From NCBI GenBank assembly GCA_900315045.1, contig OMXR01000006.1, positions 1-37,457 of the forward strand: a stretch of 37,457 bases of DNA, in the 5' to 3' direction. A program made the translations under genes and the position numbers. The stretch comes from an uncultured Sutterella sp. (GTDB lineage: Bacteria; Pseudomonadota; Gammaproteobacteria; Burkholderiales; Burkholderiaceae_F). The notes beneath the pieces are model-generated. The model did not search any database. It had not been told where the DNA came from and was given only the letters and a program-made list of their open reading frames with translations. Below are positions 3,366-32,172 of the stretch, piece after piece (position 1 is the first letter of the stretch; each line of letters opens with the position of its first letter).

Positions 3366-3758
3366 TCACAGAACGCTCAGGCGTTCAGCAAAATCCGCGG
3401 CGTTATGTACGCGAAGCTTCTGATACACCTTGTTGCGGTGTCCCTGAACGGACCTTGGGCTGAGACCAAGCCGCTCGGCAATCTCTGCATTGGATAGTCC
3501 CGCGCAAAGCAGGTCCGTGACCTGCCTTTCCCGTGGGCTCATGTCCTGAAGCGCCTGAAGCACCCTGCTGCGATCCAAAAGCCTGCCGTCACGGTTGATG
3601 TTAAGCATGCAGGCTTCGAGAATTGAACTTCTCAGCCGCTCCTCGTTAACAGGCTTCTGCAAAAAATCTACGGCCCCTTTCCTGAGAACATCCACGGCCG
3701 TATCAACGTCAGCGTGCCCCGTGATGAAAATGATCGGCACCCCGATGCCGCGGTGCAT
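3366..3758 (-). pseudogene. 5'-truncated FixJ/NarL-family response regulator
   Basis: The 130-codon frame from ATG 3758 encodes only the second half of a receiver domain (VPIIFITGHADVDTAVDVL, then the conserved lysine in FLQKP) and a complete LuxR-type HTH (MSPRERQVTDLLCAGLSN, SVQGHRNKVYQKL). Homology seems to begin about 13 codons upstream, at SGISDEKMHRGIG, before an in-frame TGA. The phosphoacceptor aspartate, the acidic pocket and the first ~60 residues are missing. None of the three frames up to 3945 contains them. The intact regulator at 31543–32172 is about 209 residues. The surviving part has no stop or frameshift, so either truncation is recent or a phosphorylation-independent DNA-binding protein survives. 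There is no partner kinase beside it. Confidence 0.72.
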
Positions 3759-3945
3759 TTTTTCGTCAGAGATACCTGAGTACTTTGATCTGCATCAATC
3801 GGTTCTCGGTCCGGATTCCTTCGCCGGCCTTCTTGTAAAGAAACGCAAATATCCGTGCACAAACACATTGTCAGACCTCTTTTGAACGCAGTCTGTGCCA
3901 TGATTCGATCAGGAAAAACTTCTGCACGACACTGTGATAAACGCC

Positions 3946-4661: not shown

Positions 4662-5999
4662 ATGGTCGGGCGGCGTCATTTTCCGGGCGGCATATTCATC
4701 GAGCTTTTTGTCGGCATCTGGCTCGTGCTGCTGCTCATCGGCGTCAGTGTCTGGCTGATCGGCGAAAGCTATCAGCAGTATCCCCGCAACTTCGGACACA
4801 TCGACCAGAGCCGGAGGGCGGTTCGCGCACTGAGGCTTTCAGCAAACCTCGCGCAATGGAACGGTGAAGCGGCTCTCAAGAAATTCCTTCTTGATCCGCA
4901 AATCAACCAGCGTCCCGAGGTTTTTGTTCTGGATGCCTCCGGCAGGGAAATCACGGGAAGAACGGTTCCGTCGACGGCGCTGGCAGATCTTGATCGCGGT
5001 GTTCCGCCGCACAGTCTGGTGACGGTCCGTCTTGAGTCCGGGCCTCTCACCTTCTTTTCCGTGCGCACAGACCGCCCCCCCAGGAATCTCTTCTTTGACT
5101 TTATCCGGGCGCCCCTGTGGATACGCGCGCTGATCATCGTACTGGCAACGACTGCCGTTTCCAGCCTGCTTGCCTGGTACTTTTCCCGCCCCATCAAAAA
5201 GCTTGAATGGGCGATGCGCAAGGCCTCCCAGGGCGACCTCGATATCCGAATCGCGGCGGAAGTCGGGCACCGGCACGACGAAATCGGGCAGCTCGCCCAA
5301 GGCTACGACCACATGGCCGAGCAGATCAACCGGCTGATAGCCAGGCAAAAGCGGCTCTTCCATGACGTGAGCCACGAGTTGCGGAGTCCTCTTGCGCGGG
5401 TCGAAGTTGCTCTTGCCCTCGCCGAAAAGAATCCGGAGCGCCGTGACGAGCTGATGAAGCGCATTGAGCGGGAGGTCACAACACTGGACGCACTGGTCGA
5501 GGAACTTCTCACATATGCACGGCTCGATGACAACGCACCGATGAAGCTCGAGCCGACCGACATCGCGCCGATTCTGGAAGCCATTGCTGAAAACGCCCAG
5601 TTCGAGGGAGAGGCAAAATCCATCCGCATCGCGCTTGCCCCCGTCCTGAACTGCAGGATCAATGCCAATGTCGATCAGCTGGGACGCGCCATTGAAAACA
5701 TCGTCCGCAACGCTCTGCGCTTCACGCCGCAAGGCGGCGTCGTATCGATTGAATCGCACCTTCTCGGCAAGACGCTTCTGATCACCGTAGCCGACCAGGG
5801 GCCGGGCATGTCGCCTAAGGAAATCGAAAACATGTTCCAGCCCTTTGTCCGAGGCGCCGATCAGGCAACCGGCTCCGGGTTCGGGCTCGGGCTGGCCATT
5901 GCCAAACGGGCGGTGGAACGCCACGGCGGCTCCATCAGCGTGAAGAACGCCACGCCGCACGGCCTCGTCATGACCGTGAACCTGCCAGTCTGCAGTTAG
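4662..5999 (+). CDS. Membrane sensor histidine kinase (CpxA-like)
   Basis: Partner kinase of the regulator just upstream. A first membrane helix at about residues 11–31 is followed by a periplasmic loop of roughly 110 residues and a second helix at about 150–170. A HAMP linker follows (FSRPIKKLEWAMRKASQGD). The H box FHDVSHELRSPLARVEVAL has phospho-acceptor H238. The ATPase domain shows the N box (IENIVRNALRFTP), the G1 box (VADQGPGMS) and the G2 box (GSGFGLGLAIAKRAVERHGG). The 445-residue length is usual. Its TAG stop overlaps the stop of hisN on the other strand by four bases (5996–5999), leaving no room for a terminator between them. The stimulus is unknown; envelope stress is inferred from CpxA resemblance. 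Confidence 0.92.
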   Translation: MVGRRHFPGGIFIELFVGIWLVLLLIGVSVWLIGESYQQYPRNFGHIDQSRRAVRALRLSANLAQWNGEAALKKFLLDPQINQRPEVFVLDASGREITGRTVPSTALADLDRGVPPHSLVTVRLESGPLTFFSVRTDRPPRNLFFDFIRAPLWIRALIIVLATTAVSSLLAWYFSRPIKKLEWAMRKASQGDLDIRIAAEVGHRHDEIGQLAQGYDHMAEQINRLIARQKRLFHDVSHELRSPLARVEVALALAEKNPERRDELMKRIEREVTTLDALVEELLTYARLDDNAPMKLEPTDIAPILEAIAENAQFEGEAKSIRIALAPVLNCRINANVDQLGRAIENIVRNALRFTPQGGVVSIESHLLGKTLLITVADQGPGMSPKEIENMFQPFVRGADQATGSGFGLGLAIAKRAVERHGGSISVKNATPHGLVMTVNLPVCS

Positions 6000-25567: not shown

Positions 25568-27232
<1,665 letters not shown>

Positions 27233-27247
27233 TCAGCGCCGCACAAT

Positions 27248-27357
27248 TCAGGCGGAGACCTTCCGCCTGACGCTGCAGATGGGCGGATCCGGACAAACTC
27301 CTGGTCCGCCTTTTTGACACCAGAGAAATCGTTTTGCTCTTTTGCAAAACGATTTTT
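27248..27357 (+). terminator. Tandem terminators after groEL
   Basis: Three hairpins follow in series. TCAGGCGGA (27248–27256)/TCCGCCTGA (27262–27270) has no T tract. A stem between 27282 and 27310, ending GGTCCGCC, is followed by TTTTT. AAATCGTTTTGC (27326–27337)/GCAAAACGATTT (27344–27355) is a perfect 12-bp stem running into T. The set insulates the next operon from the strong heat-shock transcript. Confidence 0.85.
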
Positions 27358-27635
27358 CGTTTTTGCGATGTTGCTGGGCACTTCTTCGTAAATAATTCCC
27401 CCGAGTGTATTTCTCCTTCTGCCGACAGGCTGCCTGTCTGGCTTTCCGCCCTGATGACTTTTTTGTGATCAGGGCATTTTCTTGCCTGACCGCAGAAAAA
27501 ACCGTCCAAAAATCAGCCTTCGGTGACGCCAGGGCACCATTCAGCCTTTCTGTTGGCAATACGCAAACTGCTTAAGTAGCGCTTGGGGATACTGTTCCTC
27601 CCGTACAAACAAACCCATCCTATCGGAGGATCACC
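27358..27635 (+). promoter_or_regulatory. Upstream region of the flavin reductase operon with two dyads
   Basis: No gene is seen in these 278 bases. A near-continuous dyad GACAGGC-T-GCCTGTC lies at 27424–27438. A second inverted repeat, GCCCTGAT (27448–27455)/ATCAGGGC (27468–27475), is followed by ATTTTCTT and may be a further terminator. No convincing sigma-70 or sigma-54 promoter could be named. The operon's ribosome site is TCGGAGGA, seven bases before the ATG at 27636. The first dyad is a candidate operator for the operon's own regulator, by inference. Confidence 0.4.
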
Positions 27636-29225
27636 ATGCAAGTTTCCAAGCGCAATTTCCTGAAGGGCGCCGCGGCTGCCGCCGCCGTCGCTGCCGTTCC
27701 AGCTGCTCAGGCCAAGAAGCGGGCCGACCTGCCCAGAAAGTGGAACATCACCACGGATGTTGTCATCGTCGGCTACGGCGGAGCTGGTGCCAGTGCCGCA
27801 ATTACGGCTGCCGATGCCGGCGCCAAGGTCATGATTTTTGAAAAGTGCGCCACTGGCGGCGGCAACACCGCAGTGTCCTCCGGCGGCATGTTCATCCCCA
27901 ACAACGAAGAGCGTGCCTTCACCTACCTGAAGAAGACCTACACCTTCGCCAACAGCGAAATCGACGAGGTTCAGCTGCGCGCCTTCGTCAAGGAAGCGAT
28001 GAAGTCCAAGGAGTTCCTCCTTTCTCTGAAGCCCGACCAGAAGGTCTACATCTACGGCCACGCCGGCTTCCAGAGCATTCCCGAATCCGATGCCGTTGAC
28101 AAGTGGCGCTTCCGCTCCACGCCCGGCACCAAGATCCGCGGCGGCGACATGCTCTTCAACAACTACCGCTACGCCGTTGAGACAGTCCGCAAGGTTCCTG
28201 TCAAGTACAACGCCCGCGCTCTGGAGCTGATCCGCGAAAACGACGAGGTTCTCGGCGTCTGGTTCGAAATCGAAGGCAAGAAGGTTGCCGTCAAGGCCCG
28301 CCGCGGCGTGGTGCTTGCAACCGGCGGCTACGAGTGGGATGACGTCCTGCTGCAGAACCACACGATGGGCACGATGTTCCATCGCCTCGGCCACCCCGGC
28401 AACACGGGCGACGGCGTGCGCATGGCGGTTGCCGCCGGCGCCGACACCTGGCACATGAACGCACTGTCCTGCCCGCTCGGCCTTGAAGTCCCCGGTCTGA
28501 AGACCGCCCTGCAGATCAACATGCTCTCTGCCAGCTACTTCTATGTCGACCAGGACGGCAAGCGCTTCGTGAACGAGAAGATGGACAACCACACCTGCAT
28601 CTACGGCGTGAACATGCTCGATGCCATCAAGCACCGCTATCCGCGCATCCCCTGCTTCGTGGTCTTTGACGAGAAGGCCCGCCTGCGCGGCCCGATCATC
28701 GGCGGCGCCACCTCGGGCTATGCCCTGAACCGCGAAGGGTACAAGTGGAGCAAGGACAACAGCGCTGAAATCGAAAAGGGCGTGATCGTCAAGGCCGACA
28801 CCATTGAAGAGCTTGCCAAGAAGATCAACGTGCCCGTTGAGAACCTTGTCAACACCTTCAAGACCTGGAATGCCAACATCAAGGCCGGCGCCGACAAGGA
28901 ATTCGGCCGTCCGCTCGAGAAGAAGGGCAAGATCGCCTTCGAAGGCCGCGAAGCTCCGCTCATCTCCGCACCGTTCGACGAGCAGGGACCGTACTACGCT
29001 GCCAAGCTCTACCCGGCCATCCTGAACACCCAGGGCGGTCCGCGCAGGAACGAAAAGGGCCAGGTGCTCAACCCATTCAAGAAGCCGATTCCGCGCCTTT
29101 ACAGCGCCGGCGAGCTCGGTTCTATGTGGGGCCACATCTATCAGGGCGCATGCAACAACTCCGAGTCCTGCGTGTTCGGACGCATCGCCGGCCGCACCGT
29201 TGCTGCCGAGAAGCCCTGGTCCTAA
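27636..29225 (+). CDS. Secreted FAD-dependent reductase, flavocytochrome c/fumarate-reductase-like flavoprotein
   Basis: A periplasmic flavoenzyme of the fumarate reductase/KstD-like FAD family, expected to reduce a small organic molecule with electrons from the adjacent cytochrome. The N-terminus has a Tat-like signal with a Lys-Arg pair (SKRNFLK, residues 4–10), an Ala-rich core and a likely cut after AQA at 26. FAD binding is shown by VVIVGYGGAGASAA (42–55), E69, TGGGNTAVSSGGM and the C-terminal ACNNSESCVFGRIAGRTVA. By eye-alignment to Shewanella Fcc3, the fumarate-binding histidines and arginines are replaced: C279, L297, N464, and IYQGACNNSES (501–511) instead of NRLGGN. Fumarate is therefore unlikely as substrate. 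Length is 529 residues, with no haem domain attached. Confidence 0.88.
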   Translation: MQVSKRNFLKGAAAAAAVAAVPAAQAKKRADLPRKWNITTDVVIVGYGGAGASAAITAADAGAKVMIFEKCATGGGNTAVSSGGMFIPNNEERAFTYLKKTYTFANSEIDEVQLRAFVKEAMKSKEFLLSLKPDQKVYIYGHAGFQSIPESDAVDKWRFRSTPGTKIRGGDMLFNNYRYAVETVRKVPVKYNARALELIRENDEVLGVWFEIEGKKVAVKARRGVVLATGGYEWDDVLLQNHTMGTMFHRLGHPGNTGDGVRMAVAAGADTWHMNALSCPLGLEVPGLKTALQINMLSASYFYVDQDGKRFVNEKMDNHTCIYGVNMLDAIKHRYPRIPCFVVFDEKARLRGPIIGGATSGYALNREGYKWSKDNSAEIEKGVIVKADTIEELAKKINVPVENLVNTFKTWNANIKAGADKEFGRPLEKKGKIAFEGREAPLISAPFDEQGPYYAAKLYPAILNTQGGPRRNEKGQVLNPFKKPIPRLYSAGELGSMWGHIYQGACNNSESCVFGRIAGRTVAAEKPWS

Positions 29226-29248
29226 CGGACTGATCTGACGCCCTGCGG

Positions 29249-29278
29249 GCATGCGGGAACCCTCCGACCCGCATGCCG
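29249..29278 (+). repeat. Intercistronic hairpin between flavoprotein and cytochrome genes
   Basis: GGCATGCGGG (29249–29258) pairs perfectly with CCCGCATGCC (29269–29278) around ten bases. There is no T tract, so it more likely stabilises or marks a processing point in the mRNA than ends it. Confidence 0.6.
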
Positions 29279-29304
29279 GTGGCGGCGGCATCAAGGAGAT
29301 AACA

Positions 29305-29652
29305 ATGTCTTTTACTGCAAAAAACCTGATTCTGGGACTTGCCGCGATGGCCTTCTCCCTGACGGCCGCCGCTGCTGACGCAAACAAGATGCTTGCCGAC
29401 CGGCATGCCGCCAGAGGCGTGCCGTGCCAGGCATGTCACACGCAGATGCCCCCGAAGGCGCCATCAAACGAGGCATGTGCCGCCTGCCACGGCGGATATG
29501 CGCAGCTTGCCAAGCGCACGGCCAAGAAGGACATCAATCCGCACGACTCCCATGTTGAGGATCCGTCCTGCAACCAGTGCCACAGCGGCCACAAGAAGCC
29601 CCGGCTGCTTTGTGACCAGTGCCATGAATTCACGGACATCAAAGTTCCGTAG
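29305..29652 (+). CDS. Periplasmic tetrahaem cytochrome c
   Basis: A 115-residue electron carrier with four CxxCH haem sites: C41–H45, C58–H62, C89–H93 and C103–H107. Additional histidines at 34, 80, 83 and 96 can supply the second axial ligands, as in the haem domain of flavocytochrome c and small tetrahaem cytochromes. A Sec signal peptide (LILGLAAMAFSLTAAAA, cut near residue 24) sends it to the periplasm, where haem is attached. AAGGAG lies eight bases before the ATG. It is the natural electron donor to the flavoprotein encoded 79 bases upstream; the two correspond to the halves of a single-chain flavocytochrome c. The quinol dehydrogenase that would feed it (CymA/NapC type) is not in the window. 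Confidence 0.95.
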   Translation: MSFTAKNLILGLAAMAFSLTAAAADANKMLADRHAARGVPCQACHTQMPPKAPSNEACAACHGGYAQLAKRTAKKDINPHDSHVEDPSCNQCHSGHKKPRLLCDQCHEFTDIKVP

Positions 29653-29668
29653 TGCCTCTCAGCTACAA

Positions 29669-29696
29669 TTGCCCGCAAGCCCTGCGGGCAATTTTT
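29669..29696 (+). terminator. Intrinsic terminator between cytochrome and sensor kinase genes
   Basis: TTGCCCGCA (29669–29677) pairs with TGCGGGCAA (29683–29691) with a five-base loop, followed by TTTTTCTTTTTC. It sits inside the operon, so it probably lets only part of the transcript continue into the regulatory genes. Confidence 0.88.
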
Positions 29697-29708
29697 CTTT
29701 TTCAACAA

Positions 29709-31550
29709 GTGCCCCGAATCCTCTCCCTTTTGCTTGCGGCCGCAACCTGCGCCTTCGGACTGTTCCTCGCCTCGGCGACAGATCCTGCGAGTTCCGCCGA
29801 GGAGCCGCCAGCCGCCCTTCTGGCGGCACGCCACGCTGCGAGCGGACGGCCTCTTCTTCGCATCGGCTATATTGAGCAGAGTTTCTCCCCCTCCGAGCGC
29901 GAAGGCTTTGAAGCCACCTTTGCGTACCTGAGGAAACGTCTGCCGCAGTATGACGTGTCCATCGATCCGTACCTGGTCAAGGATCTGGAAAGAGCCATCC
30001 GCGAAAACAAGGTCGAATTCTTCCTGGGGGCCTCGGGCTTCTATCGGCGCGTCTACAGCAGGGGCCTTCGCGACATCGCCACCATGACGACACGTGTTGC
30101 CCCCAATCCCAACCAGGCGATCGCCACGGTTTTTCTCGTACCCAACGAAAGTCCGATCAAAACGGTTGCCGATCTCCGGGGCAAAAAAGCCGCCGTCAAC
30201 TGGCTCAATGGCTGGTCCGGCGTCTTCATTCCGCTCAAGGAGCTTCAGGATGAGGGCTACGATCCTGACAATTTTTTCGGAGGGCTTGTCGCTGCAGGCT
30301 CACCGATGCGCAAGCTTCTGCTCGCCGTTCTGCGGGGCGAAGCCGATGTCGCAATGTCCCGCTCCTGCACGCTTGAAGAGCTGCGTCTCACGGAACCTGG
30401 ACTTGCCGGCCGGTTTCGTCCGATCGGGCTGAAACCCGATAATCTGTCCGACTTCAAGTGTCTGCGCTCAACCGAGGTCTATCCCAACTGGACGTTTGTT
30501 TCAACCTCGCTGGCTCCCTGGCAGATGAGCCGGGACGTGGCAGCCGCCCTGCTCACCATGCCCAAAACTCAAAACGGGACGGGCTGGGCCGTTGTCTCCG
30601 ACTTCACACAGGTCGACAATCTCTACAAATCCCTGCGGCGCGGCCCGTACGAATACCTGCGCATCCGTTCGGTGTCTGATTTCATTAAGCGCTACTGGGG
30701 CATCATCTGTCTTGGGTTCATGGGGATTCTTGCCCTGATTTTCCACAGCTGGTATGTCCGGTACCTGGTCAGCGTGCGGACACGAGAGCTGCGCGAAGCC
30801 GTGCAAAAGGAGCGCGAGGCCGAAGCCGCGCAAAAACTGGCGCTCGAGCAGATTCAGTCCCTTGAACGAATCAGCACGATCGGCGCCGTCTCGAGCATGA
30901 TCACCCACGAGCTGAATGGTCCGATCTCCGTGATCAGCAACAGTTGCAACGCGCTGCAAAGACAATTCGAGCGCTCCCCCGTCCCGCCCCAGCTCGAAAA
31001 GGCGATCGAGCTCATCGCCCGCCAGTGCGAAAAGGCAAGCGGCATCGTCAATCACGTGCGCAATTACGTCAGGCACCGCGACGCACAGCTTGAGCCCATC
31101 GACCTAGCCGCCGAACTCACCCGGATTTTCAACGCGTGGCTGCTCAAAACCCCGGTCGGCATGCTCCATCTGGACATTCAGGCCCAGGGAATCAGCGTTT
31201 TCTGGAACAGGCTCGAGCTCGAACTTTGCCTCAGAAACGTCACCAAAAATGCAATCGAGGCCTGCGAGGGCTACAAAGGCGCCCGCATACGCATTGTCCT
31301 CACCACGCAGGACGCGGGCTCGAAGGCCATCATTTCGGTTCTTGACAATGCACCGACCGGCGAGGACGAACTTGAAAAGCACAGCCGGCCGCTGAACACA
31401 TCCAAGGCAACAGGCACCGGTCTCGGACTGCTCATTGTTCGGACACTGTGCGAAAAAGCCTCCGGAAACTTCACGATTGGCAGACTGGATGGCCTCACCG
31501 AAGCGCGCATTACATTGCCGATTTTCAACAAGGAGAGCGCTCATGGCTGA
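29709..31550 (+). CDS. Sensor histidine kinase with PhnD-like periplasmic ligand domain
   Basis: A membrane kinase that probably senses the reductase's substrate outside the cytoplasm. From GTG 29709 a signal/anchor helix (ILSLLLAAATCAFGLFLA) leads to a periplasmic domain (~45–310) resembling PhnD-type phosphonate/anion-binding proteins (LLRIGYIEQSFSPSEREG, TVADLRGKKAAVNWLNGWSG). A second helix lies at ~330–350, then a coiled coil, then the H box ITHELNGPISVI with H400. The HELNxP wording is the HPK4 type seen in DctB and FixL. The ATPase domain shows N-box NVTKNAIEAC and G-box TGTGLGLLIVRTL. Length is 613 residues. A start at GTG 29652 is in frame but would place the terminator hairpin in the coding region. 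The regulator overlaps its end by 8 bases. Confidence 0.88.
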   Translation: MPRILSLLLAAATCAFGLFLASATDPASSAEEPPAALLAARHAASGRPLLRIGYIEQSFSPSEREGFEATFAYLRKRLPQYDVSIDPYLVKDLERAIRENKVEFFLGASGFYRRVYSRGLRDIATMTTRVAPNPNQAIATVFLVPNESPIKTVADLRGKKAAVNWLNGWSGVFIPLKELQDEGYDPDNFFGGLVAAGSPMRKLLLAVLRGEADVAMSRSCTLEELRLTEPGLAGRFRPIGLKPDNLSDFKCLRSTEVYPNWTFVSTSLAPWQMSRDVAAALLTMPKTQNGTGWAVVSDFTQVDNLYKSLRRGPYEYLRIRSVSDFIKRYWGIICLGFMGILALIFHSWYVRYLVSVRTRELREAVQKEREAEAAQKLALEQIQSLERISTIGAVSSMITHELNGPISVISNSCNALQRQFERSPVPPQLEKAIELIARQCEKASGIVNHVRNYVRHRDAQLEPIDLAAELTRIFNAWLLKTPVGMLHLDIQAQGISVFWNRLELELCLRNVTKNAIEACEGYKGARIRIVLTTQDAGSKAIISVLDNAPTGEDELEKHSRPLNTSKATGTGLGLLIVRTLCEKASGNFTIGRLDGLTEARITLPIFNKESAHG

Positions 31551-32172
31551 AAATACCGTCAAACCGCTGATCCGCCTGGTCGATGATGAAGCCGATCAAC
31601 TGATGAGCCTGAGCCTTCTGCTTGAGGGCGAAGGCTGGCAAACCGCCGCCTATCAGAGCGCCGCCGCCTTTTTTGCCGGTGACACGCCATCTCGCCCCGG
31701 ATGCCTCATCCTGGATGTGCGCATGCCGGACATCACCGGGCTGCAGATGCAGGCTGAAATGAACCGGCGCCAATATCCCCTGCCCATCATCTTTCTCACC
31801 GGTCACGGCGACGTGGACATGGCGGTGCAGACGATGAAGGACGGAGCCAAGGACTTCCTGCTCAAGCCCGTCGACCCCGAGCGGCTTCTCACCGCCGTTG
31901 CCAAGATCGTGCAGGACGATCTCGACCAGAGGTCTATGCCCATTGACGAAGCGGAATGGAAAAAGCGATTCGAGCGGCTCTCCTCGCGCGAGCAGGACGT
32001 GATCCGGGGCGCCATCAAGGGGCTGCTCAACAAGCAGATCGCGCGCAAGATGCAGATCAGCGAGCGCACCGTTCAGGCGCACCGCAACACGGCCTACCGC
32101 AAGCTCGAAGTGCACAGCGTCGCGGATATGGCGCCGCTTACCGTGCTGTTTTCCCGCGGCATCCTATCGTGA
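31543..32172 (+). CDS. FixJ-family response regulator
   Basis: Output partner of the kinase. The receiver domain is at ~8–125, with D14–D15, phosphoacceptor D58 in CLILDVRMPDITG, and the conserved lysine in FLLKPVDPERL. A LuxR-type HTH lies at ~145–195 (LSSREQDVIRGAIKGLLN, SERTVQAHRNTAYRKLEV). ATG 31543 has AAGGAG nine bases upstream and overlaps the kinase gene, indicating translational coupling. Length is 209 residues. One feature is unusual: the last nine bases overlap the end of the U32 gene on the other strand. It most likely activates the reductase operon. A truncated relative lies at 3366–3758. Confidence 0.93.
   Translation: MAENTVKPLIRLVDDEADQLMSLSLLLEGEGWQTAAYQSAAAFFAGDTPSRPGCLILDVRMPDITGLQMQAEMNRRQYPLPIIFLTGHGDVDMAVQTMKDGAKDFLLKPVDPERLLTAVAKIVQDDLDQRSMPIDEAEWKKRFERLSSREQDVIRGAIKGLLNKQIARKMQISERTVQAHRNTAYRKLEVHSVADMAPLTVLFSRGILS

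Follow-up and report, generated by a model that had tools for sequence, protein, structure and literature searches.

Genes and transcript layout of the locus

The window, by which we mean the whole stretch of 37,457 nucleotides analysed from an uncultured Sutterella sp., carries four forward-strand genes that the first-pass annotation had proposed to be intact and to follow one another in the order reductase, cytochrome, sensor kinase, regulator. An open reading frame check and profile searches find all of them as described. The first (27636-29225) encodes an extracytosolic FAD flavoprotein reductase, here called RedW, which matches FAD_binding_2 (E 9.8e-48) and, above its cut-off, the TAT_signal profile, the motif being KR rather than RR (SKRNFLKG). 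The second (29305-29652) encodes a periplasmic tetrahaem c-type cytochrome of 115 residues, scoring 66.4 bits against PF14537 (cut-off 25 bits) and containing the four CXXCH motifs of a cytochrome c3-type tetrahaem protein. Its start was corrected to the ATG at 29305, which has AAGGAG ahead of it, from the wrong start at 29251. The suggestion of a respiratory-type flavoprotein accompanied by a tetrahaem cytochrome is supported.

The sensor histidine kinase (29709-31550) consists of a signal peptide or anchor, a PhnD-like domain (PF12974, about 29886-30590), one later transmembrane segment, and HisKA (HELNGP) and HATPase_c domains (about 30891-31520). Its start is most likely the GTG at 29709, judging from the alignment with a related locus, L112, which has an ATG there and is without the GTG of 29652; the latter codon was dropped as a start because it is not conserved. 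The regulator gene (31543-32172) begins before the kinase gene ends (31543 against 31550) and encodes a FixJ/TtrR-type protein with a receiver domain (LDVRMPD) and a LuxR/FixJ-type helix-turn-helix, whose recognition helix reads SERTVQAHR. The fusion of a PhnD-like periplasmic domain to HisKA/HATPase, with such a regulator adjacent, is the architecture of TtrSR systems.

The picture of a tightly spaced unit, by contrast, does not hold. An intrinsic terminator on the forward strand at 29667-29703, consisting of a hairpin (29667-29693) and a T-run, divides reductase and cytochrome from sensor and regulator, and because of it we reject a single four-gene transcription unit. The hairpin folds at -17.8 kcal/mol (z -4.69) and its stem is retained in L112, the one relative compared. 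The terminator call is based on this strength and conservation because the scan as a whole returned about as many terminator-like sites as shuffled sequence (eight against 6.5 expected).

Other structural features surround the genes. An inverted repeat between the reductase and cytochrome genes (29249-29276, forward strand), read by alignment, is mostly retained in L112. A terminator-like hairpin at 27323-27358, downstream of groEL (25595-27232), divides that gene from the reductase. A further inverted repeat, GCCCTGAT...ATCAGGGC, lies upstream of the reductase promoter (27448-27475) and is mostly conserved in L112, which keeps it although genes farther upstream give no DNA match. No Rfam element reaches its gathering threshold between 27200 and 32300, and a promoter scan found no consensus sigma-70 promoter in the reductase upstream region.

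The control region and its predicted operator

The new part of the locus is its control region, a composite, address-bearing promoter. Alignment and motif scans place the predicted operator of the FixJ-type regulator, TGCTTAAGTA, at 27569-27578 on the forward strand, 57 bp before the reductase gene; it was first picked up as CTGCTTAAGTAG when the upstream regions of the window and L112 were aligned. Two base pairs ahead of it lies a degenerate FNR/CRP-type box, TTGGC-AATA-CGCAA (27553-27566, forward strand), of the form TTG-N8-CAA. The consensus for FNR is TTGAT-N4-ATCAA, and relatives of the window's box come near to it at the same spacing; an FNR-like protein with CxxCx5C is encoded at C64 in the same genome. 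A candidate -10 hexamer, TACTGT (27590-27595, forward strand), has only three of six matches to TATAAT and stands at +21 from the operator, a position conserved elsewhere.

Operator-like sequence recurs ahead of reductase or cytochrome genes in other loci, and its specificity was assessed in several ways. Allowing up to one mismatch, TACTTAAGTA occurs 12 times in 5' flanks and nowhere else across 69 loci in which flanks make up 55,149 of 790,357 bases; these loci were not selected for the motif, although part of them had suggested it. Among 19 permuted palindromes used as a control, the best reached four in flanks, with eight outside. An unsupervised scan of 3328 patterns (256 half-sites by 13 gaps), which took in loci selected for the motif, ranked TACT-N2-AGTA first, with 15 instances in flanks and six outside. 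Exact STACTTAAGTAS is found at 23 places in 67 genomes: 15 are where a reductase, cytochrome or kinase gene of such a module begins, one lies between two flavoproteins and seven are elsewhere, so that 8 of 23 fall away from module promoters. By count the motif is not over-represented, there being 33 places per strand in this genome (up to one mismatch) against 113 for the reversed pattern. Its distinctive feature is placement, not number.

In a list of 37 operator sites drawn up by hand, TTG-N8-CAA (up to one mismatch) appears at offset -16 in 23 (next best offset, 3), and a TATAAT-like hexamer (up to two mismatches) at +21 in 17, the window lying outside those 17. A search of 67 family genomes for the composite TTGA-N7-CAA-N2-TAC-N4-GTA, without mismatches, finds 25 places in 14 of them, against one for the reversed control. 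At 23 of the 25 the first gene downstream in the proper orientation encodes a flavoprotein (22 by HMM, and a 63-residue start at a contig end in L223); the other two precede a truncated regulator in this window and a DJ-1-type protein in L230. All 25 are in genomes with PhnD-like kinases; the 34 genomes that lack a kinase match at 1e-60, among the matches listed, contain none. The RedW promoter itself is a variant (TTGG, TGC, weak -10) outside the 25. A looser form of the composite finds two sites in the window, where 0.03 would be expected and none of 100 shuffles had two: the RedW promoter and TTGATGCAGATCAA-AG-TACTCAGGTA on the reverse strand at 3773-3798.

The latter site is 5' of the truncated regulator gene (3366-3758, reverse strand). 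The 130-residue remnant comprises part of a receiver and a helix-turn-helix (helix SPRSVQGHR), its N-terminal half missing, and stands right behind a near-perfect FNR box and the operator TACTCAGGTA; the glycine of its helix and the non-TA operator centre fit the code proposed below.

Probable regulon, relatives and regulator-operator covariation

A genome scan with a 12-mer, allowing one mismatch, finds the 10-mer TGCTTAAGTA at four places: in the window and on contigs C121, C131 and C105. The C121 site precedes RedF, a reductase with FMN_bind and FAD_binding_2 domains; that on C131 precedes a second copy of RedF, truncated where the contig ends and 98.5% identical to the first over 273 residues; and that on C105 precedes a DJ-1/PfpI protein. 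With three further transcription units behind the same sequence, the locus can no longer be called self-contained or a one-locus device. An operator-like site on C76 was taken as chance, since it sits among what look like atp genes. DJ-1/PfpI-family proteins with signal-like N-termini also stand behind composite promoters in two genomes (L150, 2318-3112, and L230), where they are 58.5% identical over 164 residues.

Flavoproteins adjoining sensor relatives in L094, L092, L096, L124 and L126 share 70-78% identity with RedF, which is 67-70% identical to flavoproteins clustered with a RedW-type cytochrome in L116, L119 and L102, the RedW gene in L102 being a 138-residue remnant. RedF orthologues thus adjoin relatives of the window's sensor in other genera. 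At L116 and L102 the sensor beside RedF belongs to another clade, which counts against a fixed sensor-RedF pairing. In two further genomes (L093, 7434; L095, 7538; G045 and G044 respectively) an operator separates the kinase gene from a divergently oriented Amidohydro_3 hydrolase gene, and the neighbourhood lacks a flavoprotein; the hydrolase is a possible non-respiratory target of the sensor's relatives.

Operator centres vary between modules, and apparently do so together with the regulators. Among 31 regulators whose promoters have an FNR-type box (up to one mismatch), from a wider list of 68 of which 27 have no composite site, the operator centre is non-TA in all eight modules with glycine before HR in the recognition helix and in 1 of the 23 others. 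Likewise, a CTAG-type centre accompanies asparagine at that position in 6 of 6, against 1 of 25 of the rest. When the regulators are grouped into 17 clusters at 60% identity, the associations have Fisher p values of 0.002 (Gly) and 0.005 (Asn), for a pattern that was noticed first and then tested on the same data. In the cluster of the window's own regulator (window, L112, L094, L127), TGCTTAAGTA is present in four of four, though L094 serves another reductase. Since the operator sits in the RedW promoter, recurs in relatives and covaries with regulator helices, the regulator very probably acts on that promoter, and comparative sequence strongly supports the regulatory link.

A broader reading, for and against which we find the balance about even, is that Sutterellaceae run an addressable system of respiratory control. 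Each genome would hold many paralogous PhnD-sensor/FixJ pairs, each reading an operator of the TAC-N4-GTA class whose central bases (TTAA, CTAG, GTAC, GCGC, TCGA and others) form an address, the window's type using a TGC half-site. The residue before HR would decode the address, and an FNR-type box would always stand 2 bp away from the operator. Recombination would have brought sensors and flavin reductases together in new pairs under this code, so that an enzyme's acceptor might be traced through its address to a sensor elsewhere. The window's system would represent one address, with a regulon of RedW-cytochrome, the two RedF copies and the DJ-1 protein. Searches of the open-licence literature brought up no description of such a promoter code, nor of flavin reductases controlled by PhnD-type sensors in Sutterellaceae.

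How often do such genes keep company? PF12974 has 11 matches in this genome, seven of them full kinases, and a FAD_binding_2 gene (25 matches in the genome) is near four of the seven. When 16 loci were picked by kinase alone (L171-L186), nine had a flavoprotein within the fetched stretch. The arrangement is therefore a common theme, not a single device, and the combination is not unique to this locus, the more so as the TtrSR and ThsSR systems discussed below share the sensor-regulator architecture. At another locus (L053, G000:C65), a PhnD-kinase/regulator pair adjoins a DUF748 gene and a transporter-like gene rather than a reductase. Across the 67 family genomes the kinase has a match at 1e-60 in at least 33 and the reductase one at 1e-90 in 24.

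Outside the window's genome, reductases 72-97% identical to RedW were found at 11 loci. A PhnD-like kinase and regulator are within about 2 kb at 10 of them, with the kinase split by a stop at L121; at L122 neither is found in 13 kb. The order reductase-cytochrome-kinase-regulator with the same sensor clade is seen at 1 of the 11 (L112), the usual order being kinase-regulator-reductase, with kinases 28-36% identical to the window's by BLAST. For the proposed refutation, a sensor-regulator pair usually apart from the reductase in relatives, the answer is mixed: some pair of this type generally accompanies the reductase, but the same clade in the same order seldom does. Loci were chosen for reductase or kinase homology, except for 14 annotated ones chosen for the motif; a scan of related loci yielded a single relative that matches over its full length (L012, 77%), and 37 more loci that match at 21-33% identity in the kinase part.

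Proposed function and its alternatives

In its gene content the locus follows the known TtrSR/ThsSR scheme, with a flavoprotein as the variation. In TtrSR-TtrBCA (tetrathionate) and ThsSR-PhsAB/PsrC (thiosulfate), too, the genes of a respiratory reductase adjoin those of a PhnD-like kinase and a FixJ-like regulator; those reductases are molybdenum enzymes (PMC5408782), in contrast to the flavoprotein and tetrahaem cytochrome here. The published descriptions give a ttrR box, GTGG-N4-CCAC, and a ThsR operator, TATGTGGTTTACCACAAT, both assisted by FNR or CRP sites (PMC11293645, PMC5408782). The operator here has their geometry, with a half-site STAC/TGC as against GTGG for TtrR. A TtrR box is absent from the reductase promoter, the sole exact GTGG-N4-CCAC being at 5913 and the nearest with one mismatch at 27740, inside the reductase gene. 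Similarly, the kinase scores 175.5 bits against TtrS (NF040750) and the regulator 144.8 against TtrR (NF040749), far below the cut-offs of 750 and 290. The sensor type is already known, since the survey in PMC5408782 lists 154 PhnD-like kinases after removal of redundancy, of which 131 adjoin a regulator, 18 lie near tetrathionate genes and 13 near thiosulfate genes.

Other systems share single elements. In AioXSR/ArrXSR a PhnD-related binding protein senses a respiratory substrate, arsenic oxyanions, and regulatory modules and enzymes differ in phylogeny (PMC5908839); there, however, kinase and binding protein are two distinct proteins, and a molybdoenzyme does the catalysis. The regulator's best NCBIfam match is FixJ (NF006900), at 168.7 bits below the cut-off of 255, but FixLJ has a haem-PAS sensor and the window's kinase has none. 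Of the FixJ motifs GTAMGTAG and TAAGTAATTTCCCTTA given in PMC4999443, the first resembles GTACGTA/TAAGTAG in operators here. The two-gene cgr operon for cardiac glycoside reduction in Eggerthella lenta, also a gut bacterium, pairs a cytochrome with a flavoprotein reductase (PMC5953540); it differs in phylum, substrate class and regulation, and the cytochrome matches Cgr1 weakly (27.6 bits, cut-off 340). Flavocytochrome c fumarate reductase, urocanate reductase and their kin have a FAD_binding_2 reductase fed by a tetrahaem cytochrome, as here.

We think it fairly probable that the locus as a whole serves respiration in the manner of TtrSR, being induced by its acceptor but using a flavoprotein in place of a molybdenum reductase, and that its regulon is spread. 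RedW would be exported and reduce an organic compound in the periplasm, receiving electrons from the tetrahaem cytochrome, itself presumably supplied from the quinol pool by a NapC/NrfH-type dehydrogenase encoded elsewhere; a NapC-type cytochrome gene (PF03264) is present on another contig, C120. The kinase would bind a small molecule with its PhnD-like domain, presumably the electron acceptor or a close relative of it, and phosphorylate the regulator, which would then bind TGCTTAAGTA. As the same promoter carries an FNR-type site, we propose that expression needs both the absence of oxygen and the ligand. The terminator would hold the sensor pair below the level of the enzyme, its genes being transcribed by read-through or from a separate weak promoter, and the operators before the two RedF copies and the DJ-1/PfpI gene would extend the response.

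It is possible, if somewhat doubtful, that the sensor pair was instead recruited from another system and that its ligand is not a substrate of the adjacent flavoprotein. Kinases serving the 72-83% identical reductase relatives are only 29-37% identical to the window's, among the matches listed. A tree built from 59 kinases places the window's kinase in a mixed clade of 10 members (100/100), with RedW-type neighbours in three cases, RedF-type in five and no flavoprotein in two; on this tree, proximity to a RedW-type reductase must have changed at least five times. However, RedF, the usual partner of this clade, keeps the operator in trans here and clusters with RedW-cytochrome genes at L116 and L119, so that these partners seem to belong to a single pathway. 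In the PhnD-like pocket, STSG of PhnD becomes GWSG in the window's clade, and there is no His at PhnD's His position, differences that do not suffice to assign a ligand; for comparison the alignment included the one match, below cut-off, obtained when 274 genomes of the class were searched for TtrS.

That the regulator switches the enzyme on, as first suggested, is in part upheld: the predicted, recurring and covarying operator argues for control, and activation rather than repression is what we infer. If the +21 hexamer is the -10, the FNR-type centre would be near -42 and the operator centre near -28, which would be unusual for an activator. Lying between the FNR-type box and the -10, at roughly -33 to -24, the operator might serve to repress an FNR-driven promoter until ligand reverses the kinase/phosphatase balance. 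We consider this unlikely, as TtrR and ThsR are activators (PMC11293645, PMC5408782) and the start site here is a predicted one. Still less likely is it that another regulator, for example that on C55 with the similar helix SEKTVQVHR, reads the orphan sites or even the window's promoter while the adjacent pair acts elsewhere: TGCTTAAGTA adjoins the regulator in all four loci of the window's cluster, and no PhnD-like kinase is present at C55 among the genome's PF12974 matches.

RedW scores 188.2 bits against TIGR01813 (flavocytochrome c), below the cut-off of 285.45, while RedF (L147) exceeds it at 372.7. RedW keeps as R310 only R402 of fumarate reductase, which we take to be the proton-donor Arg, and has Leu/Asn and Tyr at the positions of H504 and R544. 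RedF keeps the positions of H365, R402, H504 and R544 and not T377/E378. Given the carboxylate-clamp roles of these residues, RedF retains the clamp positions but not those for a second carboxylate, and we therefore guess, tentatively and for the pathway rather than for RedW, at an alpha,beta-unsaturated monocarboxylic acid. It is quite improbable that RedW instead oxidises a ketosteroid-like substrate, as a dehydrogenase feeding electrons into the cytochrome. Among proteins of solved structure, 3-ketosteroid dehydrogenases match it best (4c3x, E 2.9e-33), but the catalytic Tyr of that family, Y318, aligns with Asn, R310 is kept and an FNR-type box is present in the promoters. The keto-binding Tyr, Y487, pairs with Y502 by eye.

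Dozens of secreted flavin reductases in gut bacteria await the assignment of a substrate, and a signature tying each to a sensor would be useful. The promoter signature would allow regulons to be assigned by sequence, as a prediction until binding and induction are shown, and the system provides a natural example of how paralogues diverge in regulator-operator specificity. The PhnD-like sensors would be a ready library of biosensors for respired compounds, as has been done for thiosulfate and tetrathionate, and a shared promoter code linking enzymes to sensors could help to find what each enzyme respires.
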